Shown: one piece after another, positions 45,883 to 55,403 of the stretch | Layout: each line of letters begins with the position of its first letter | How positions within the stretch are numbered: position 1 is the first letter of the stretch | NCBI RefSeq assembly: GCF_037976325.1 | Contig: NZ_CP150265.1 | Span: 7,319,501-7,383,500, forward strand | Origin: Paenibacillus sp. FSL K6-3182 | GTDB taxonomy: Bacteria > Bacillota > Bacilli > Paenibacillales > Paenibacillaceae | Length of the DNA stretch: 64,000 nucleotides | Direction of reading: 5' to 3' | Notes under the pieces: model-generated | The model's input: only the letters and a program-made list of their open reading frames with translations | What the model was told of the DNA's origin: nothing | The model's database searches: none | Program-made: the position numbers and the translations under genes

Positions 45883-46209
45883 TTACTTCTGCAATGCCTG
45901 CCATTCTTTAAATTGCTTCTGATATTCAGCGATAACCTTGTCTAATCCAGCAGCCTTTAAGCTTTGAAGAGCTGCCGGGAAGTATTTATCGTAGGATACC
46001 ACGCCCATTTTAATTGGAATGATCTTCGATTTCACTTCGGATAGCACATTCGCATATTCAACAGCAATCGGCTCCGTATTGAGGCGGAAACCAAGAACAG
46101 GTGAGAATTCAACTGGATTCGAAGTCTCTGTCGTTTGCATTTTCAAATAATCTTCCGGCGTCTTCACATCAAACAACATGTAGTTAATGTTGCCGATCAT
46201 CCATGAATC
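45883..46209 (-). pseudogene. 3' remnant of a DUF3502-type solute-binding protein gene
   Basis: The reading frame gives about 108 residues: SWMIGNINYMLFDVKTPEDYL ... KVIAEYQKQFKEWQALQK. This matches only the C-terminal end of LplA/YtcQ-like extracellular binding proteins (usually some 500 aa). The protein-like sequence stops at the junction near 46205, with no ribosome site, signal peptide or lipobox. Directly beyond the junction lies an oppositely oriented AraC gene remnant, so the 5' part was lost by deletion. Unlikely to be functional. Confidence 0.75.
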
Positions 46210-46454
46210 AAAATAATAAGTTATCTCCCGGCTACCTCGGCAAGCTGTTCCGCAGCCATACGCAGCTGTCGTTTAATGATTATTTAAAGAAAATTCGGCT
46301 GGAGGAAGCTACGCGGCTTCTTACGACAACAAATGATTCCATTGCGGTCATCAGCGAAAGTGTCGGCGTGCTCAACACAACCTATTTCTTCACCCTGTTC
46401 AAAAAAACATACGGCATTTCACCCGCTCAGTACCGCGAACAACATACAAAATAA
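46203..46454 (+). pseudogene. 3' remnant of an AraC-family regulator gene
   Basis: Codes for 83 residues of the C-terminal AraC DNA-binding domain only: LSPGYLGKLFRSHTQLSFNDYLKKIRLEEATRLL and the second helix-turn-helix IAVISESVGVLNTTYFFTLFKKTYGISPAQYR. The first helix-turn-helix lacks its leading helices and the whole sensor/receiver part is absent. No ribosome site precedes the first ATG. Intact relatives (YesN-like) are several hundred residues and commonly sit beside LplA-type binding-protein genes. Confidence 0.75.
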
Positions 46455-46458
46455 ACAC

Positions 46459-46512
46459 AAAAAAGGCTGTTTGCACGAGAAGGGTACACCCTTCCTGCAA
46501 ACAGCCCTTTGG
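46459..46512 (-). terminator. Terminator of the 934-aa protein / YbjN-like operon
   Basis: Minus-strand stem AAAGGGCTGTTTGCA / TGCAAACAGCCTTTT with inner GGAAGGG / CCCTTC, then TTTTGTG; 13 bases after the stop of the gene at 46525. Confidence 0.8.
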
Positions 46513-46524
46513 TTATCGATGATA

Positions 46525-47472
46525 TTAGCGTTTAAGCACTTCACGAATTTCAGAGAAATAAGACTCTACCGCTTCAAGGTGATTGCCGAGTATTCTGCTG
46601 AATACCTCAGAATCATACGTTTTCCCGGCATAATAGGAGGATCGGAATCTTAGCTCGCCATCCTCATCATCCAGCTCGAAGCTGCCACTTAGCAGGTCCA
46701 TGTTCTCGTTCAATAATAACAAGGCAAGCTCCTGGCGCTGATGCTCAGGGACGAGCTCCGGATAGACGGAATACACCGCACAATAATCCTGGACTTCCTC
46801 GATCCGAATGAGACCAACCCAGCTTTCGCCTCTACTAGTAAATATAAGCTTGTACAGTTGATCGTCTATAACCTCATGTTTCAGTTCATTGTCCGTTAGA
46901 AATGATGTGATATGCTCATTCAAAGCCCCATTTGCAATAGAAGGCTCTTCGGGTACTGAATTTCCTTGATCCATTTCTGCAGCCCACGCCGTCCTGAATC
47001 CTATCTTTAAGATGCCTTCATCCTTCAACGCTTCAGGCAAAACGACGCTTTGCTTTAATTCCAGCGCAAGCCAGCTCTCGGTATGATCTAAGCTCAGCAG
47101 CTTGCTCGTTGGCTCCGTACTTGAGCGCACACTATCGAATATAGCTTCTGCATCGAATCCATGCTGAGCAGCCAGCTTCGTCAGACTTGGCCTTAGCGCG
47201 ACATGAACTTCTACGGGCTGATTCTCATCCATAGCCGCGCTGCTGCCTGTCCTCATGCTGGCGAACAAGTTAAACCACTCGTTCTCCATAATATCTTGAT
47301 AAGTTTGGCCGCTAACCTCGATCATCATCTGACAAGAAAGCGACTCCTCGAAGCTTTGAAAATTAATTTTTCGCAAGACAGCAGGCACTAACTCTCCCGT
47401 CAGCGTATGGAAATTTATCGGCAGCTCTGTAGTAATGCTTGTATCTCCCGTATACTTATGTTGTTTGGACAT
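46525..47472 (-). CDS. Hypothetical protein with YbjN-like C-terminal domain
   Basis: 315-aa soluble acidic protein. The N-terminal half (about 1-170) is not recognised; it opens with TELPINFHTLTGELVPAVLRKINFQSFEES. Residues about 185-315 resemble the YbjN / type III secretion chaperone fold: ITSFLTDNELKHEVIDDQLYKLIF, then ELALLLLNENMDLLSGSFELDDEDGELRFRSSYY and a C-terminal helix IRE. No signal peptide or membrane helix. It begins 24 bases after the stop of the 934-aa gene, with AGGAG 11 bases before ATG 47472. Best guess is a chaperone or partner for that protein; this is inference from fold and position. Confidence 0.68.
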   Translation of the reverse strand: MSKQHKYTGDTSITTELPINFHTLTGELVPAVLRKINFQSFEESLSCQMMIEVSGQTYQDIMENEWFNLFASMRTGSSAAMDENQPVEVHVALRPSLTKLAAQHGFDAEAIFDSVRSSTEPTSKLLSLDHTESWLALELKQSVVLPEALKDEGILKIGFRTAWAAEMDQGNSVPEEPSIANGALNEHITSFLTDNELKHEVIDDQLYKLIFTSRGESWVGLIRIEEVQDYCAVYSVYPELVPEHQRQELALLLLNENMDLLSGSFELDDEDGELRFRSSYYAGKTYDSEVFSRILGNHLEAVESYFSEIREVLKR

Positions 47473-47496
47473 GACTACGATCACTCCTAGCAAATA

Positions 47497-50301
47497 TTAA
47501 CCTATTTCGTGCCCTGCCAATTCTCCTGAAATGGATCCCGATCCACTCGCATCCTGCTCATATTGCAGTTTTCCAAGTCGCTTGGACTTCTCTACCGCTA
47601 CATTCACGATGCCTGCTTCCACTTCGAATGACTTCGTTTGCGTAACTTCCAATGCAATTTCCCAGCCTTTGGACTTATTATCTTTATCCCACTTTTTGCT
47701 AAACCCAATACTCAAATCTAGCGAGCTTGCGAGCGCTATTTTGTTGCCTTGTTCAATCGCGCTAGCACTTGAATCACCCGTTAGCCAACCGCGAATCGTA
47801 TCATTGACGGTTTCGTCGCCTTGGATTTTTGAGGCAAGGCTTTTGCCGGCTGCTTCAAATTGCGGAACTACAAATAACAGATCCGTCCCGGTATCCAGAG
47901 CTGAGCCTGCACCCTTCGCCACCAGATCCTTATCCTTTTTCACTTTGCTAGTGATAAGGCCAACGAGATTTTTGGCCGAGCCAGCTACAGGTGTCGCTAC
48001 TTTCGATGCAATCTTCACCCATTCGCCCGCATCTTCACCAAATTGGAATGGAATAGAGCCGCTAGCTGTAATTTCGAGCGATCTCAAATTATTATTGATG
48101 ACGGAACCTGCTGCTTCGAGTCCAAAGGCGATGTCGTTGCCGCCCAGCTTCACCTTCGCTTCGGCAGAGGCTTCCATAACATGCACATTCATACCTCTGC
48201 GGAGGGTTGCTGCCTTTTCCTTCAGCTTCGTCAGATCCGTTGCCCCGCCAAATCCGTTAGGCGATTGTTTCTCAAGAGCTTCTTTGTCAAAGCGGCCTAA
48301 GAACTTATAGCCAAGGGCTGCTCCCATCTCGGCTACCCCTGCATTCGCTTCAGCCTCTCCCTTAAAGGTCAAGCCAATATCAACATGATTGCCTGCTTTT
48401 TGCAGCTCCTTTTCCTCGATCATAGCTGCCCATATTTCCGCTTCTTCGACCTCGGCCATACCGGACTTACCTCCCATACCCCAGAGATAATCCGCTGCCC
48501 TATCGGAAATGTTTCTTATTTGCCTGTACATACCGTACGAGGTTAAATTCATGACACCGGCTGAATCCGTTCCTATACTCTCTAGGAAGAAGCCCGCACG
48601 GAAATTGGCGTCGAAGCCAAACGACTGGAAGCCTGCTCCGAAAGTAATTTCAGCAGCCATCGTTAATTCTTTGTCTTCTCTGCCTACCGAGCCTGCCAGT
48701 CCGAACAGAACATAGACGCCGCTAGCATGAACGGGTATTTTCAAATCAAAGCTGAACGAGCTGGAGTCGCCAATATTCGGCGCGGCAAGATCAAGCACCT
48801 TGCCTATAACGAAGAGCCCTTTGTTTAGCGTAGGAGCCTCTACTGTTTTTTTAATGGCTTTGCCGGCTATATCATCCGCCGTAACCTGCTCCTTCGTTTT
48901 CTCAGCAAGTGCCGCAAGCTGCGCAGCATCCGGCTTCGAGCCTGGCACCTTTTTATCGCCTTTCGTAATGCTTCGAACAGCGTTCACCGCTTCGGTTTGT
49001 TTGCTCTTCAGCAGTTCAATCGCTTTCTTCTCAGCACCAACTAAAGCAGCTTCATTTACTTTTACACCCGGAGCGTTTGTACGTGCTACGCCATATGCTG
49101 AGGTTTGTGCTGCTTCTTTCAGCAGCTTCTTAATATCCCCTTCAGGCAGCACTCTTTTCGTGATATTGACTGCCTCAGTAGTCATAGCTGCATCGACAGA
49201 GCCCTTGGAGGTTGCATGTGATTCCTTCTTTGCCATCATGCCGGTAAACTTCTTATCGAGCTGCGTTTTGCCCGATGTTAGTGCATTCGTGTCCAATTGA
49301 TTGTCAATATCCGTTCTCGACTGCTCTCGCGCAGCATCTTTCATCTTCTGACGGAATGCATTAAGTTCTTTGGATCTTCGCCAAGCGCCTCGTCCTACGC
49401 CGAGCTTCATAACGACAGCTTCTTTGATGGGTTCATACAGCTTATTCGTATAAACCGTATTAATAACAGCTGGCTGAACAAGCGTACTATCCATTTGATG
49501 CCGATTTTCCACTTCTGCCTTACCCAAATCGCCAACGTTTACACTGCTATCGAGAAATGCTGCACTTTGCTTAACCTTGTCCACAGCATCTTTTTTAATC
49601 TGTGCAAGAGATACATTAGACAACCGTTCAGCCTCAGCAGTTGCCTCCCTCGTCGCCTGTGCGTTCGCAGCTAACACTTGTTTAGCTAAAGGAACCTCAG
49701 GCCTTGCCTCCGTCTTGTTATAGCCTTCAATGAACTTATTCGCCAGCAGGCTCTTTTGGCTCGATGGAAGCTTGCTCACGACAGTATCGCTCGCATATTT
49801 CTTTAACGTATCGGATACGATGCCTTTTGCAGCTACATGTTCTGCAGCATAAAGCTTTTCATCTGCCTTCTCATGGGCCTCTGCTACACCGTTCTGATCG
49901 ATATTCGCTTCTACCGCCGTCTTGGCTTTAGCCTGCAGACTGGCTCTTAGCGATGCTGTTTGTTTATCACTATTTAAGAACGTATGTATATGCTGACTCG
50001 TTTGCTGAATAAGCCCATCAAAGAGCTGCTGTGGTTTGACAGTGACCTGCGCATCACGATCTGCTTTGAGCTCATCCTTTCGCACATCTTTAGGTGACTT
50101 CTGAGGGGCAGTCGCAGCTCCGCCTACTTGTGCACTCGTAGACTGATTGCCTGCCGTCTGCTGCAATTGCAGGAGCTGCCCAGGATTCACAGCCGGTGAT
50201 TGAGGCGATTGCTGTGGCTGCGCAGGTGCAGTGCTTTGCGCTGGAGGAGCTGGTTTTGGTTTAGCAACGGTTGGATTCGAGCTTCGTGAGAAAAAAGGCA
50301 T
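47497..50301 (-). CDS. Large hypothetical protein with eCIS-type LQxxxGNQ tag
   Basis: 934 aa, not assigned to a named family. Residues 1-60 are Pro/Gln/Ala-rich and contain LLQLQQTAGNQ (43-53), like the LQRTAGN-type motif near the N-terminus of proteins tied to extracellular contractile injection systems and DUF4157 proteins. Residues about 70-520 are helical, polar and Lys/Ala-rich with coiled-coil character. Residues about 530-934 are rich in alternating beta-strands (VYVLFGLAGSVG, FGFDANFRAGFF, IAFGLEAAGSV, LDLSIGFSKKW). No signal peptide, membrane helix or catalytic motif was found. GAGGTGG lies 6-8 bases before the ATG. Leads a two-gene operon with the YbjN-like protein; no eCIS structural genes are in the window. 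Confidence 0.7.
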   Translation of the reverse strand: MPFFSRSSNPTVAKPKPAPPAQSTAPAQPQQSPQSPAVNPGQLLQLQQTAGNQSTSAQVGGAATAPQKSPKDVRKDELKADRDAQVTVKPQQLFDGLIQQTSQHIHTFLNSDKQTASLRASLQAKAKTAVEANIDQNGVAEAHEKADEKLYAAEHVAAKGIVSDTLKKYASDTVVSKLPSSQKSLLANKFIEGYNKTEARPEVPLAKQVLAANAQATREATAEAERLSNVSLAQIKKDAVDKVKQSAAFLDSSVNVGDLGKAEVENRHQMDSTLVQPAVINTVYTNKLYEPIKEAVVMKLGVGRGAWRRSKELNAFRQKMKDAAREQSRTDIDNQLDTNALTSGKTQLDKKFTGMMAKKESHATSKGSVDAAMTTEAVNITKRVLPEGDIKKLLKEAAQTSAYGVARTNAPGVKVNEAALVGAEKKAIELLKSKQTEAVNAVRSITKGDKKVPGSKPDAAQLAALAEKTKEQVTADDIAGKAIKKTVEAPTLNKGLFVIGKVLDLAAPNIGDSSSFSFDLKIPVHASGVYVLFGLAGSVGREDKELTMAAEITFGAGFQSFGFDANFRAGFFLESIGTDSAGVMNLTSYGMYRQIRNISDRAADYLWGMGGKSGMAEVEEAEIWAAMIEEKELQKAGNHVDIGLTFKGEAEANAGVAEMGAALGYKFLGRFDKEALEKQSPNGFGGATDLTKLKEKAATLRRGMNVHVMEASAEAKVKLGGNDIAFGLEAAGSVINNNLRSLEITASGSIPFQFGEDAGEWVKIASKVATPVAGSAKNLVGLITSKVKKDKDLVAKGAGSALDTGTDLLFVVPQFEAAGKSLASKIQGDETVNDTIRGWLTGDSSASAIEQGNKIALASSLDLSIGFSKKWDKDNKSKGWEIALEVTQTKSFEVEAGIVNVAVEKSKRLGKLQYEQDASGSGSISGELAGHEIG

Positions 50302-50910: not shown

Positions 50911-50925
50911 GTGAGGGGTAATTTT

Positions 50926-51786
50926 ATGAAGAGAATAAGCACACTTACATTGTTGATATCACTTACCGTATTGCTGCTAGCAGCTTGCGGCACCAAGAAT
51001 GACAATAACACTGGAGGCTCCAAGGAGCCAGCAGTAAGCCCGACTGCGGAAGCTTCCAATTCAGCAGAGCAAGCACCGGGGCAAGAAGCATGGGATTCAA
51101 TTAAAGCAAGCGGCAAGCTCCGCATCGGTACGGAGGGCACGTACGCCCCATTTACATTTCATGATGAGTCAGGCAAGCTCACCGGCTTCGACATCGAAAT
51201 TGCTGAAGAGGTTACTAAGCGACTTGGTTTAAAGGCTGAATTCATTGAGACTTCGTGGGATTCCATTATCGCCGGCCTTGATGCAAAGCGGTTTGATACT
51301 ATTTTTAACCAAGTAGGTATTACAGATGAACGAAAAGAGAAATATGATTTCTCTGATGATTATATCGTTTCCAAAGCCGTATTAATCGTTGCTGAAGACA
51401 ATAATGATATTAAAACGTTCGCGGACCTAAAAGGCAAGAAAGCGGGACAATCGTTAACTAGCAACCTCGCTGATATTGCTCGTGAGAATGGGGCAGAGAT
51501 TGTAACAACGGATGGTTTCAGTCAAGCGATTGATTTACTTGCTTCGAAACGCATCGATGCTACCGTAAATGACGGATTATCCTTCTTGGATCTAAAGAAG
51601 CAAAAGCCTGAACTACCGCTTAAAATTGTTGCTGAAGCACCGGATGCAGCCAAAAATGCCGCTCTTTTCAGAAAAGGAAATGAAGCATTAATTGAAGCGG
51701 TTAACGGCGCGCTTGCCGAAATCAAGAGTGATGGCACTTACTTGAAAATCTCCGAGAAATATTTTGGAGCAGACGTCTCCAAATAA
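50926..51786 (+). CDS. Amino-acid (probably cystine) ABC transporter substrate-binding lipoprotein
   Basis: 286-aa family 3 binding protein. Signal peptide with lipobox LLAAC (lipidated Cys21). Mature domain begins LRIGTEGTYAPFTFHDESGKLTGFDIEIAEEV, the polar amino-acid binder signature, then GLDAKRFDTIFNQVGITDERKEKYDFSDDY, typical of L-cystine binders such as TcyA/FliY. Ligand assignment is moderate. ATG 50926 has GAGGGG 7 bases upstream; the longer frame opens at a GTG. First gene of a three-gene importer operon. Confidence 0.87.
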   Translation: MKRISTLTLLISLTVLLLAACGTKNDNNTGGSKEPAVSPTAEASNSAEQAPGQEAWDSIKASGKLRIGTEGTYAPFTFHDESGKLTGFDIEIAEEVTKRLGLKAEFIETSWDSIIAGLDAKRFDTIFNQVGITDERKEKYDFSDDYIVSKAVLIVAEDNNDIKTFADLKGKKAGQSLTSNLADIARENGAEIVTTDGFSQAIDLLASKRIDATVNDGLSFLDLKKQKPELPLKIVAEAPDAAKNAALFRKGNEALIEAVNGALAEIKSDGTYLKISEKYFGADVSK

Positions 51787-51838
51787 TGAACGCTGCCTTG
51801 CTGACTAACAGCCCACAGGCGTAAAGGATGATTATAAT

Positions 51839-52507
51839 ATGACTGACCGTCAAATAGAGATTCTTATTGATTCACTGCTACCCCTGCTCAAAGCAGGGGT
51901 AGTTTTTACAATTCCACTCGCACTAGTTTCATTTATTTTAGGTCTAATATTAGCTATTGCTACTGCTCTTGCAAGACTATCCTCCATAAAAGTACTGCGG
52001 CTTGTTGCTCGCTTCTATGTATGGATCATTCGCGGAACTCCGCTGCTTGTCCAATTGTTTATTATTTTCTATGGTCTTCCTTATGTCGGCATTATATTAG
52101 ATCCGTTTATTGCCGCTGTCATCGGCTTTACGCTCAGTGTAGGCGCCTACGGCTCCGAGATTGTCCGTGCATCGATTCAGTCGATCCCGAAAGGGCAATG
52201 GGAAGCCTCATATTCAGTAGGAATGACAAGGTGGCAGGCGCTTCGGCGAGTCATTTTACCGCAGGCGGCTCGGGTGTCCATTCCCCCGCTAGGCAACTCG
52301 TTCATCAGCCTAGTAAAGGATACTTCACTTGCCGCTACCATTACTTATGTGGAAATGTTCCGTGTAGCACAGCAAATTAACGCGGCTAAGTACGAGCCAC
52401 TTCTAATTTATTGCGCCGCTGGGGCCTTCTATCTGTTGTTCTGCTCTGTTCTGTCATGGCTGCAGAATATTACCGAGAAGCGATTGGCGCGGTTTTCCGC
52501 AAGCTAA
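51839..52507 (+). CDS. Amino-acid ABC transporter permease (TcyB-like)
   Basis: 222-aa permease with about five helices, His/Glu/Gln/Arg/opine family. Marks: WIIRGTPLLVQLFIIFYGLP and the EAA loop GQWEASYSVGMTRWQALRRVILPQAARVSIPPLGNSFISLVKDTSL. The latter is the usual signature for polar amino-acid permeases. Follows the binding protein by 52 bases with AAAGGATG before the ATG. Forms a homodimer in the predicted transporter. Confidence 0.9.
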   Translation: MTDRQIEILIDSLLPLLKAGVVFTIPLALVSFILGLILAIATALARLSSIKVLRLVARFYVWIIRGTPLLVQLFIIFYGLPYVGIILDPFIAAVIGFTLSVGAYGSEIVRASIQSIPKGQWEASYSVGMTRWQALRRVILPQAARVSIPPLGNSFISLVKDTSLAATITYVEMFRVAQQINAAKYEPLLIYCAAGAFYLLFCSVLSWLQNITEKRLARFSAS

Positions 52508-52521
52508 GGGAGAGATAATTG

Positions 52522-53274
52522 ATGATAGAAGTACGCAATTTGCATAAATCCTTCGGTTCTTTGGAAGTTTTGAAGGGAATTAATTTGACGTTGGAGAAAG
52601 GCAAGGTGCTCGCGATAATAGGGCCCTCCGGTTCCGGCAAGACTACGCTGCTTCGATGCTTCAACCTACTAGAAGTGCCTGATCGAGGCCTATTAACGAT
52701 CGGTAAGCAATCTTTGGATTTTGAGGCGAAGAAGAAAGTTCGGGAGAAAGAAGCCGTAGCCTTGCGCAAGCAAACGGGTATGGTATTTCAATCGTTTAAC
52801 CTTTTTCCACACAAAACGGCGATTGAGAATATTATGGAAGCCCAACTGACTGTGCAGAAGAAGAGCAAATTAGAATCTCGGCAACGCGCCGCAGAGCTAT
52901 TGGATAAAGTTGGATTGGGCGAAAAGGCTGATTTTTACCCGCATCAATTGTCAGGCGGACAACAACAACGGATTGCCATTGCAAGAGCTATGGCCATTGA
53001 TCCTGAGGTACTGCTGTTTGATGAGCCGACATCGGCACTTGATCCCGAATTGGTTGGCGAAGTGCTCAAGGTTATAAAGAAGCTTGCTGCCGATGGAATG
53101 ACGATGATAATCGTCACCCACGAGATGAAGTTCGCAGCGGATGTAGCGGATTGTGTCATTCTTATGGATGGCGGAGTTATTATAGAAGAAGGGCCTCCGG
53201 AACATGTTTTGGAAAATCCTCAGAGCATACGCGCCGTTCAATTTTTAAATCGATTAGCCAGCTATGAAATCTAG
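52522..53274 (+). CDS. Amino-acid ABC transporter ATP-binding protein (TcyC-like)
   Basis: 250-aa ATPase with Walker A GPSGSGKTT, Q-loop MVFQSFNLFPHKTAIENIMEA, signature LSGGQQQRIAIARAMA, Walker B VLLFDEPTSALDPELVGEVL and H-loop VTHEM. All sequence marks are those of polar amino-acid importers. ATG 52522 follows GGGAGAG by 7 bases. Last gene of the operon; a terminator follows within 12 bases. Confidence 0.92.
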   Translation: MIEVRNLHKSFGSLEVLKGINLTLEKGKVLAIIGPSGSGKTTLLRCFNLLEVPDRGLLTIGKQSLDFEAKKKVREKEAVALRKQTGMVFQSFNLFPHKTAIENIMEAQLTVQKKSKLESRQRAAELLDKVGLGEKADFYPHQLSGGQQQRIAIARAMAIDPEVLLFDEPTSALDPELVGEVLKVIKKLAADGMTMIIVTHEMKFAADVADCVILMDGGVIIEEGPPEHVLENPQSIRAVQFLNRLASYEI

Positions 53275-53702: not shown

Positions 53703-54074
53703 CTAGCTCCATGCTTCAATATCATCATCATCAATTTCTTCCTCTACAACCGGAGAAGCTTTTGGGTCAGGAATGGGAGCAGTGACAGCGGCGCTAACTT
53801 CAGCGATCGCTGCTGACAATTGTTCCTCCCCTGTTAATGGAGACCTGATTTCGCTGCCTTGCTGCAAGGCCGATGAGCCTTGCAATCGACTTCTCTCCAT
53901 CGGAACAAAAGCTTGCAAATTCCGAACGCCATTTACGGCGATCTCATTTTCAACCAAATATCGAAGAGAATCCATGAGATTCGATTGTGAATTCAACCAA
54001 AGCATAATTAAGGGATCCTCTGATTTCTTGGTTTTCAAGCTTATATTTTCACCGGGCAGTTTTGTTTTCTTCAT
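53703..54074 (-). CDS. Small partner protein of the actin-like ParM homologue
   Basis: 123 aa, no named family. The N-terminal basic stretch (KKTKLPGENISLKTKKSEDPLIMLWLNSQSNLMDSLRYLVENEIAVNGVRNLQ) has the size and pattern of a small ribbon-helix-helix-type ParR (LIMLWLNSQSNLMDSLRYLVE), and the C-terminal third is Ala/Pro-rich and ends in a very acidic EEEIDDDDIEAW tail. In ParMRC loci the gene after parM encodes the DNA-binding adaptor ParR whose acidic tail touches the filament. It begins 53 bases after the actin gene's stop, with GAGAGG directly before ATG 54074. ParR role is inferred from position and layout. Confidence 0.65.
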   Translation of the reverse strand: MKKTKLPGENISLKTKKSEDPLIMLWLNSQSNLMDSLRYLVENEIAVNGVRNLQAFVPMERSRLQGSSALQQGSEIRSPLTGEEQLSAAIAEVSAAVTAPIPDPKASPVVEEEIDDDDIEAWS

Positions 54075-54126
54075 ACCTCTCACCTACCAGAATCCGTTAG
54101 ATTATACCTCAACCTGATGATTAAGC

Positions 54127-55323
54127 TTATGCAGGCTGAACCGCTTTATTTTTTAATGCCTCATAGATTTTGCCACGCACAAATGCATCAAGACCCATTG
54201 CATTCAGCTGCACTGCGTACTCGGCAGGAATATACAGCAGCTGCATCTCTCTTTCCGTACACAGCTCTTTCAGCTGTCCGTAGAGTACTGAGCGCATAAG
54301 TATGCTTCCGCCGCCGTAAACGCAAATCAGATCGATTTCATTGCGTGCTTTGGTCAGCTGTTTTTTGACATGCTGCACGATTTGTCTAACCTGGCTCTCA
54401 AGCGGTCTTCTTAATGTCTTAAGCGCACGTGCATGGTATTTATGGTTAGGATTTTTGATAACATCGCTGAAAAATTGACGCGGGCTGTCCGCCAAATGAA
54501 TGAGTCGGTTAAACTCCTGCAGCGCTTCTTCAATCGCATAACCGGCGCCATGATGGCTGCCATGCACGAATTGACGAAGAAACTTATTCCCCTCCGTAAT
54601 CGGATATTCCGTAGAACCGTCTCCGATATCCACATGAAGAATGCGTTTGTCTTTGAAATAACTGCCGTTGAATTTCTTATCTACTTCATAGGATTCAAGG
54701 AAATCTCCAAAGATTTCGCCCTCTCTCCAGCCGCCCGCCGAATCCTTCTGCAGCGTGAAAATAACCGGAGTGGCTTCTGGAACGACCTTCGCAAACGGGA
54801 ACACGATTTTTACAGCTACGCGCTGCATGCCCAAATGAACCGTCACATGGTGCAAGCCAGACGTAAATCGTTTCTCAAACTTAGCAGAGGTCTCATCCGT
54901 GTGCTGCGTAACCGGAAGCGCCGTTGCCATATCTACTTCCACATCGATTTGTGCAGGTATTTTTTTCTCTTCCTCGTACGCCTTCTGAACAGCCATCGCC
55001 GCAATTTGGGCAAGCGTATTGATAACCGGCAAATCCATATCGCTCTTCAGATCAATTCCGATTTGCAGATTGTCCAGCACTTCTCCGCTCTCTAGAGCGA
55101 ACTTCCCGACATAGTACATCCCTGGTCTTGCTGATGGCGAATCGATGGTTACAACCAGCTGATCCTGCAAATTCTTAATAAAGCTCTCTGGTGTTTGCTC
55201 TTCGCTCCATGGAAGCTCGTCCACCGTACAATTTACATTAGGCTGCTGAACCAGCTTGCCGTCAATGATAAGATCATGCTCACTGTTTCCGTTATCGTTG
55301 CCTACAAAGAAATGATAGTTCAT
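54127..55323 (-). CDS. ParM/StbA-family actin-like protein
   Basis: 398-aa actin-fold ATPase. Phosphate-1 region at the N-terminus FFVGNDNGNSEHDLIIDGK, phosphate-2 ILHVDIGDGSTEYPI (about 240) and adenosine motif LICVYGGGSILMRSVLYGQL (about 335) follow the ASKHA order, and the length fits ParM/Alp proteins that form DNA-segregating filaments. Start ATG 55323 has AGGAGG 9 bases upstream; the longer frame to 55401 is discarded. It sits next to a small acidic-tailed protein gene and beside core genes (greA, rlmN), so it is probably chromosomal here or came from an integrated plasmid. Confidence 0.8.
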   Translation of the reverse strand: MNYHFFVGNDNGNSEHDLIIDGKLVQQPNVNCTVDELPWSEEQTPESFIKNLQDQLVVTIDSPSARPGMYYVGKFALESGEVLDNLQIGIDLKSDMDLPVINTLAQIAAMAVQKAYEEEKKIPAQIDVEVDMATALPVTQHTDETSAKFEKRFTSGLHHVTVHLGMQRVAVKIVFPFAKVVPEATPVIFTLQKDSAGGWREGEIFGDFLESYEVDKKFNGSYFKDKRILHVDIGDGSTEYPITEGNKFLRQFVHGSHHGAGYAIEEALQEFNRLIHLADSPRQFFSDVIKNPNHKYHARALKTLRRPLESQVRQIVQHVKKQLTKARNEIDLICVYGGGSILMRSVLYGQLKELCTEREMQLLYIPAEYAVQLNAMGLDAFVRGKIYEALKNKAVQPA

Positions 55324-55403
55324 AATGGCTTTCCTCCTAGAAAAGGTTTTTGGAAACTTGTACAGCTTCCAAAGATTATGTTTTTTTGTTGCAACAGTCA
55401 TGG

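Follow-up and report, generated by a model that had tools for sequence, protein, structure and literature searches.

A candidate cargo protein and chaperone-fold partner encoded apart from the contractile injection system locus of a Paenibacillus genome

Results

We analysed a 64,000-nucleotide (nt) stretch of the genome of Paenibacillus sp. FSL K6-3182 (contig NZ_CP150265.1, positions 7,319,501 to 7,383,500; hereafter the window), in which two adjacent genes on the minus strand encode a 934-amino-acid (aa) protein (47497..50301) and an acidic 315-aa protein (46525..47472). We consider it likely that the pair is a cargo module of an extracellular contractile injection system (eCIS) placed away from its eCIS locus; that the 934-aa protein is itself an eCIS cargo is very probable, and that the partner is its chaperone is fairly likely. 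A preliminary description, made from the letters of the window alone, had proposed an effector or structural cargo with a dedicated chaperone. Its observations were confirmed, its interpretation is supported by the gene pairing, by co-occurrence and co-localisation with eCIS genes, by leader features (including a motif) common to other eCIS-linked proteins and by predicted folds, and a stronger statement than the original one is now possible.

Association with eCIS genes

The genome is a single contig of 7,559,925 nt (C1), in which the pair lies at about 7,366,000-7,369,800. A search for eCIS genes found an eCIS at about 1,898,000-1,923,100, so the possibility that no carrier of the pair has an eCIS fails with the window genome itself, and the preliminary statement that no eCIS genes lie near the pair is borne out by these positions. 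The locus encodes an AAA ATPase, Pvc16_N, sheath, two tubes, CIS_tube/LysM, hub, spike, gp25, two baseplate J proteins and tail protein I, with a DUF4280 protein ~5 kb further on. The co-occurrence expected across Paenibacillus and its relatives was found: the eCIS marker Pvc16_N was present in 25 of the 26 genomes examined that carry the 934-aa gene (14/14 in the family sample and 11/12 further genomes). Across 394 family genomes the homologue occurred in 14 and Pvc16_N in 77; all 14 had both, and Pvc16_N occurred in 63 of the 380 genomes that had no homologue (Fisher p 4.3e-11, kinship ignored). The exception among the further genomes was a Cytophagales metagenome-assembled genome (MAG), which gave one sheath match below the family cut-off.

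The candidate cargo gene adjoins the eCIS operon in seven of the 14 family genomes, where it is divergent from the operon and 7.6-9.4 kb from Pvc16_N; the partner was seen in six of the seven (the contig of genome G277 ends first). In these seven loci the gene stands next to homologues of HATPase, STAS and SpoIIE and to a protein of 1002-1025 aa, two of which, when tested, matched HEAT and cNMP-binding families above cut-off and MFS below it. An example of this protein of about 1000 aa, with HEAT and cyclic-nucleotide-binding domains and a weak MFS match, stands at the operon start in locus L056 (5181-8207, minus strand). In an eighth genome (G339) the pair and the eCIS operon are on separate short contigs whose order is consistent with one locus, and in G396 (P. 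whitsoniae) Pvc16_N is seemingly on the same 35-kb contig, ~29 kb from the candidate cargo gene. In both cyanobacteria with a homologue, the gene lies near an eCIS-type AAA ATPase. We dropped the idea of two eCIS locus types with the pair marking one of them, as it was the pair that had led us to the loci of that type; the protein of about 1000 aa with MFS, HEAT and cNMP matches was rejected as a sign of locus type, with homologues in 3 of 20 pairless eCIS neighbourhoods (G005, G338, G319). G269, a possible exception, has the ORF278 homologue of the own-type eCIS.

These data bear on two other readings. The pair might be a surface or regulatory pair unrelated to eCIS that merely shares a genome niche, and its orphan position in the window genome would fit; against this stand the 14/14 co-occurrence, the linkage in half of those genomes and again in cyanobacteria, and the common LQxxxGN leader described below, and we regard the idea as highly improbable. 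Alternatively, the 934-aa protein could be a structural or accessory eCIS component, such as a tape measure or baseplate part, and not a delivered cargo. It always accompanies Pvc16_N in the family sample and has a helical middle, as tape measures do, but the gene is not in 63 of the 77 family genomes with Pvc16_N, which led us to reject a structural role as the principal interpretation, and it is often far from the operon. Moreover, the slot between tube 2 and CIS_tube/LysM is already filled, by an ORF (open reading frame) of 1056-1663 aa in the mapped loci and, in the window genome, by a 618-aa ORF that has no Pfam match; the ORF in this slot is a candidate tape measure. A structural role is thus quite unlikely.

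In the window genome a SpoIIE-type phosphatase gene (Pfam) and, by reading, STAS and HATPase genes come before the eCIS AAA gene, which suggests partner-switching control and a stress- or development-linked trigger; homologues of all three stand before the AAA gene in the seven eCIS loci with the candidate cargo gene and in some others. Such an arrangement would suit a cell-associated effector that acts inside its producer and is not injected elsewhere, as proposed for the Streptomyces CIS (contractile injection system), whose effectors are tied to the producer's own development in the excerpts consulted of PMC11126660 and PMC13277306. A Paenibacillus eCIS tail fibre, however, can direct binding to foreign cells according to the available portion of PMC12923769, and it is difficult to see where the beta-barrel predicted below would fit in the membrane system of a Gram-positive cell. 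Action within the producer therefore seems to us unlikely, and delivery as an eCIS cargo remains the preferred reading.

The leader and its LQxxxGN motif

Residues 1-66 of the 934-aa protein (50104..50301, minus strand) are disordered in the structure model and basic (isoelectric point, pI, 11.2). The N-terminus (MPFFSRSSNPTVAKPKPAPP...) is hydrophilic by reading and has no hydrophobic signal, in agreement with the earlier statement that there is no signal peptide. The LLQLQQTAGNQ noted near the N-terminus was found again, starting at residue 43, with LQQTAGNQ at residues 46-53. The first 35 residues of known eCIS toxins are hydrophilic, with aromatics in the first eight, in the excerpted text of PMC11297309. 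Similarly, in 23 homologues the leader hydropathy averaged -1.06 against -0.09 in the background and early aromatics 1.35 against 0.49. A disordered hydrophilic leader with early aromatics is therefore present in the window protein and its homologues relative to a rough background. This background took in every ORF of at least 250 aa from the fetched loci, among them spurious ORFs and members of the family itself, which makes the p-values approximate; disorder was scored with a count of A, R, G, Q, S, P, E and K that we devised and not with the published index.

The strict pattern LQxxxGN occurs in 17 of the 23 homologues that have no DUF4157 domain, and extends beyond this family. In 20 other eCIS neighbourhoods it was found on 4 of 659 ORFs, one with DUF4157, all 0.9-3.8 kb from an eCIS gene; the reversed pattern was found on none of the 659. 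The proposed tie between the motif and eCIS was thus upheld by its presence on other families beside other eCIS operons, one of them with eCIS_core (DUF4157). This evidence comes from a motif scan and not from a profile search of residues 1-60. In five loci (genomes G346, G342, G356, G339 and G277; L056, L055 and L046 are among the loci) the pair is accompanied by a second ORF, of 441-495 aa, with an LQxxxGN or MQxxxGN leader. The one such ORF tested gave no Pfam match, and the second ORF is probably another cargo. In G311, a 485-aa protein with an LQRKLGNQ leader and an Endonuclea_NS_2 domain (L071, 18057-19514, minus strand) adjoins an eCIS AAA gene and is likely a nuclease cargo. When these leader-bearing proteins are compared with one another, families emerge (G239 with G211; the five 441-495-aa ORFs), between some of which there are short matches only, of 39-66 residues (E 0.002-0.004), with the window protein and the 665-aa protein of G010 among those involved. 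Around the motif, 13 residues are common to the 485-aa and 441-495-aa proteins (E 0.44). The likeness between families may reflect common descent of the leader or convergence. Searches of the window genome with degenerate DNA patterns, which cover part of the motif codons, gave four matches and then two. None of the first four was cargo-like, one having no ORF that carries the motif, and one of the second two was the window gene itself. LQRTAGN was not found in any paper in our search of 5.39 million papers.

The partner protein

The C-terminal part of the 315-aa protein had been described as resembling the YbjN / type III chaperone fold, and this was substantiated by a Pfam match to YbjN (PF10722) at residues 186-311 (E 1.5e-10; 41.8 bits against a curated cut-off of 22) and by the predicted YbjN / type III secretion chaperone fold of residues 184-314. 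YbjN was matched at E 0.01 by 22 of the 28 members of the partner family. We claim no fold for the N-terminal domain (about residues 9-169), which is extra relative to class I chaperones. The partner pI is 4.27-5.19 in 21 of 21 proteins (4.6 in the window), and its gene adjoins the candidate cargo gene in 20 of 22 loci. Both proteins have homologues, ~26-98% identical, in Paenibacillus, Cohnella and cyanobacteria, and the pair is therefore beyond chance. The trees of the two proteins agree (mirror-tree Mantel r 0.91 over 19 pairs with the cyanobacteria left out, 0.84 with two cyanobacteria included), a result that speaks of co-inheritance only. Of the proposed dedicated chaperone, then, the predicted fold, acidity and conserved pairing stand, and binding is a proposal. 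Our literature search gave no paper joining YbjN with contractile injection systems and none on an eCIS with a type III secretion chaperone.

Immunity genes usually lie just downstream of their effector. The partner might accordingly neutralise an antibacterial eCIS effector in the producer and play no part in loading: it is downstream in the same 20 of 22 loci, it is kept with the core of the larger protein whatever the N-terminal module (absent in G342, G346 and G356, helical in the window, DUF4157 in cyanobacteria), and the two trees agree over the 19 pairs. However, any two linked genes should give agreeing trees, the fold predicted for the partner's C-terminal domain is that of a chaperone and its pI is chaperone-like, and immunity against a membrane pore would more often be provided by a membrane protein. 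We judge an immunity role improbable and favour that of a chaperone.

Domain architecture and a predicted beta-barrel

The 934-aa protein matched no Pfam or NCBIfam family above cut-off, no PHROGs entry below E 0.1 and no PDB relative by profile search up to E 1; a HI0933_like Pfam match was dismissed (14.5 bits against a cut-off of 50). Among 5.8 billion proteins searched, 28 matched: the query itself (P0001), 22 further relatives of 42-84% identity, where the only organism names were Paenibacillus and Cohnella, on one protein each, and five that carry eCIS_core (PF13699, DUF4157), one named Planktothricoides. Starting from the core alone, a wider search yielded 18 matches, with the named ones again from Paenibacillus and cyanobacteria; none was named as a known toxin, and with no family match we set aside an enzyme or toxin domain recognisable by sequence. 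Scanning the genomes of 84,980 species yielded 22 loci with a homologue, 19 in Paenibacillus or Cohnella and the others in the cyanobacteria Spirulina and Planktothricoides and in the Cytophagales MAG. One core (about residues 280-934) is common to three N-terminal designs: a leader only (proteins of about 720-783 aa), a leader plus about 200 helical residues (the window protein), and DUF4157 (cyanobacteria). The region ~60-270 is thus missing from the short homologues and is the position of DUF4157 in the cyanobacterial ones, where DUF4157 was seen in the cargo or as a neighbour. The window protein had no PF13699 match in the Pfam scan; a DUF4157 search of its genome found nothing either, a weak result given that control genomes also gave no match.

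The long helical middle and beta-rich end noted in the preliminary description were reproduced by the model, in which residues 67-506 (48784..50103) are mostly helix and residues 512-933 mostly long beta strands with helical insertions. Fold matches hardly cover the helical part, and we claim no fold for it. An outer-membrane-like beta-barrel, overlooked in the preliminary description, is predicted for the C-terminal half (residues 507-934 plus stop, 47497..48783, 12 long strands), and the predicted structure is an up-and-down antiparallel barrel. The most conserved block, residues 580-633 (48403..48564; SYGxYR...WGxGGKS...EAExWA), is a helical insertion between barrel strands 4 and 5. Outer-membrane barrel proteins carry a Sec signal peptide and a C-terminal aromatic signal for the barrel assembly machinery (BAM), and Paenibacillus is not known to have an outer membrane. 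By reading, the 934-aa protein has no Sec signal peptide, and its C-terminal end, GELAGHEIG, is no aromatic BAM signal. Its highest 19-residue Kyte-Doolittle mean is 1.37, so there is no clear transmembrane helix. The predicted antiparallel barrel is as in the BrkA and EspP autotransporter translocators, CymA and OmpG, from which the protein differs in having no signal peptide, in the helical insertion between strands 4 and 5 and in an identity of no more than 9-11% in the best matches to these four. We put the chance that the barrel acts in a target membrane at slightly below even.

The gene pair and its flanks

The 934-aa ORF has an ATG start and an AGGTGG ribosome site. The partner ORF was listed as 322 aa from a TTG; an ATG at 47472 with an AGGAG site gives the 315 aa of the preliminary description. 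The two genes are 24 nt apart, the 315-aa gene being downstream, and are followed by a hairpin and U-run (about 46461..46510, minus strand; -34 kcal/mol, z -6.6, with 0 of 200 shuffles equally stable), in keeping with the pair having its own likely terminator; this hairpin is absent from the output of a terminator consensus scanner. From the spacing and the terminator the pair would be cotranscribed. Its GC content (0.482) is inside the window spread (mean 0.455, standard deviation 0.021), and its flanks are ordinary-looking chromosomal genes, with an oxidoreductase (Pfam) on one side. Beside the candidate cargo gene is, by reading, a three-gene amino-acid ATP-binding cassette transporter (50911-53274) that is not at this place in the near relative G357. 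Short ORFs at 45883-46454, which by reading look like what is left of a solute-binding protein and of an AraC-type regulator, have in their place in G357 long ORFs of presumably the same kinds; the flank adjoining the pair has therefore been remodelled. Further along, a 424-aa protein with weak sub-cut-off actin-like matches (ALP_N, MreB-like_C; 54127-55401, minus strand) and a 126-aa gene just downstream of it (53703-54083, minus strand) look like a chromosomal segregation-type actin pair.

Discussion

A number of observations count against the interpretation as an eCIS cargo and chaperone. In 6 of the 14 family genomes, the window genome included, a long distance or a contig boundary separates the pair from Pvc16_N; in G361 the distance is about 192 kb on one contig, and in the window genome, G357, G332, G350 and G311 the two are megabases apart or on different contigs. 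By contrast, for 88% of known eCIS toxins the distance to the operon is ten genes at most in the excerpted part of PMC11297309; the window pair lies outside this range and the homologues in 7 of the 14 family genomes within it, and the distance is a tendency of the class, not a requirement. Similarly, the excerpt has DUF4157 on only 36% of known toxins, so the domain is not obligatory. In the tree of the candidate cargo, the window protein groups with the eCIS-adjacent L043, L048 and L057, and a clade of 12 comprises only loci with no eCIS structural gene in the fetched flanks; repeated separation from the eCIS is therefore probable. That the resident eCIS does the loading is an assumption. 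As to the leader, the charge typical of eCIS leaders fell short of significance (p 0.053), the strict LQxxxGN pattern is not in 6 of the 23 homologues nor in any of the five DUF4157 relatives, and 16 of the 20 other eCIS neighbourhoods had no LQxxxGN ORF, so the motif is not universal. The Cytophagales homologue has neither partner nor Pvc16_N, and some regulators (AmyR, PA14_16140) have the YbjN fold too. For the barrel, the model was built from 27 sequences (predicted template modelling score, pTM, 0.55), residues 753-853 (a 101-residue stretch) are of low confidence, Foldseek alone is weak, and strand alternation reached p < 0.05 in 7 of 12 strands for the family mean and 5 of 12 for the single sequence, in a test that is silent on which barrel face points outward.

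Set beside known systems, the 934-aa protein resembles eCIS-associated toxins and the PVC and Afp cargo with N-terminal signal peptides (excerpts of PMC8213781, PMC11495950 and PMC11297309) in its disordered hydrophilic leader of ~50-70 residues, in the aromatic residues at its very start and in its coupling with an eCIS and the AAA ATPase of that eCIS. It differs from them in having a predicted beta-barrel in place of a recognised toxin domain, a dedicated chaperone-fold partner and a position often far from the eCIS. Its leader also has a recognisable LQxxxGN, whereas no conserved specific sequence was detected in the published leaders according to the excerpt of PMC11297309. In the available portion of PMC13277306, Sle1 and Sle2 of Streptomyces lividans are a cargo and partner in tandem, with the CIS structural genes starting just downstream in the opposite orientation, and the cargo has a helical N-terminal part, as here; the partner there is a DUF4157 protein and here a YbjN / type III chaperone fold, with DUF4157 only fused to the cargo, or a neighbour, in cyanobacteria.

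With class I type III chaperones (SicP, CesT, SycE, VecA) and YbjN proteins, the partner has in common the fold of residues 184-314, a low pI and a gene beside the likely client. Class I chaperones are small acidic proteins that bind the N-terminal part of their effector and serve a type III system; the partner, at 315 aa, has an extra N-terminal domain of about 170 residues. To our knowledge no type III system is expected in Paenibacillus.

We propose that the 315-aa protein would use its type III-chaperone-like domain to bind the 934-aa protein on synthesis and keep it soluble and threadable. The loading machinery of the eCIS, probably its AAA ATPase (Pvc15-type), would then recognise the 66-residue leader with LQxxxGN, in the AAA-driven manner given for Pvc15 in the excerpt of PMC11495950, and the cargo, by analogy with PVC and Afp, would be packed into the tube of the eCIS encoded ~2 Mb away. 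After contraction it would be released into the target, where, in a weaker step of the scheme, the C-terminal half may fold as a barrel and insert into or permeabilise a membrane. The full version, in which a Gram-positive cytoplasmic, cysteine-free barrel cargo is held unfolded by a type III-fold chaperone, loaded through an LQxxxGN tag common to many cargoes and delivered as a ready-to-insert pore to another cell's membrane, is a speculative and on balance doubtful proposal.

New here are the conservation of a chaperone-fold partner across two phyla, the occurrence of one motif in several eCIS-linked families and a predicted barrel payload. How eCIS cargo is recognised is an unsolved problem, for which PMC11297309 gives biochemical tendencies of the leader and no conserved sequence; a short motif common to several different eCIS-linked families would, if true, be a handle on how cargo is chosen. 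Likewise, a chaperone-fold partner kept from Paenibacillus to cyanobacteria would offer a handle on how cargo is kept threadable. A beta-barrel eCIS payload was not reported among the literature matches listed and, if true, would, to judge from those matches, add a new class to the proteins that are injected. Finally, our results suggest that cargo may be encoded megabases from the particle genes, where searches limited to eCIS operon neighbourhoods would overlook it.

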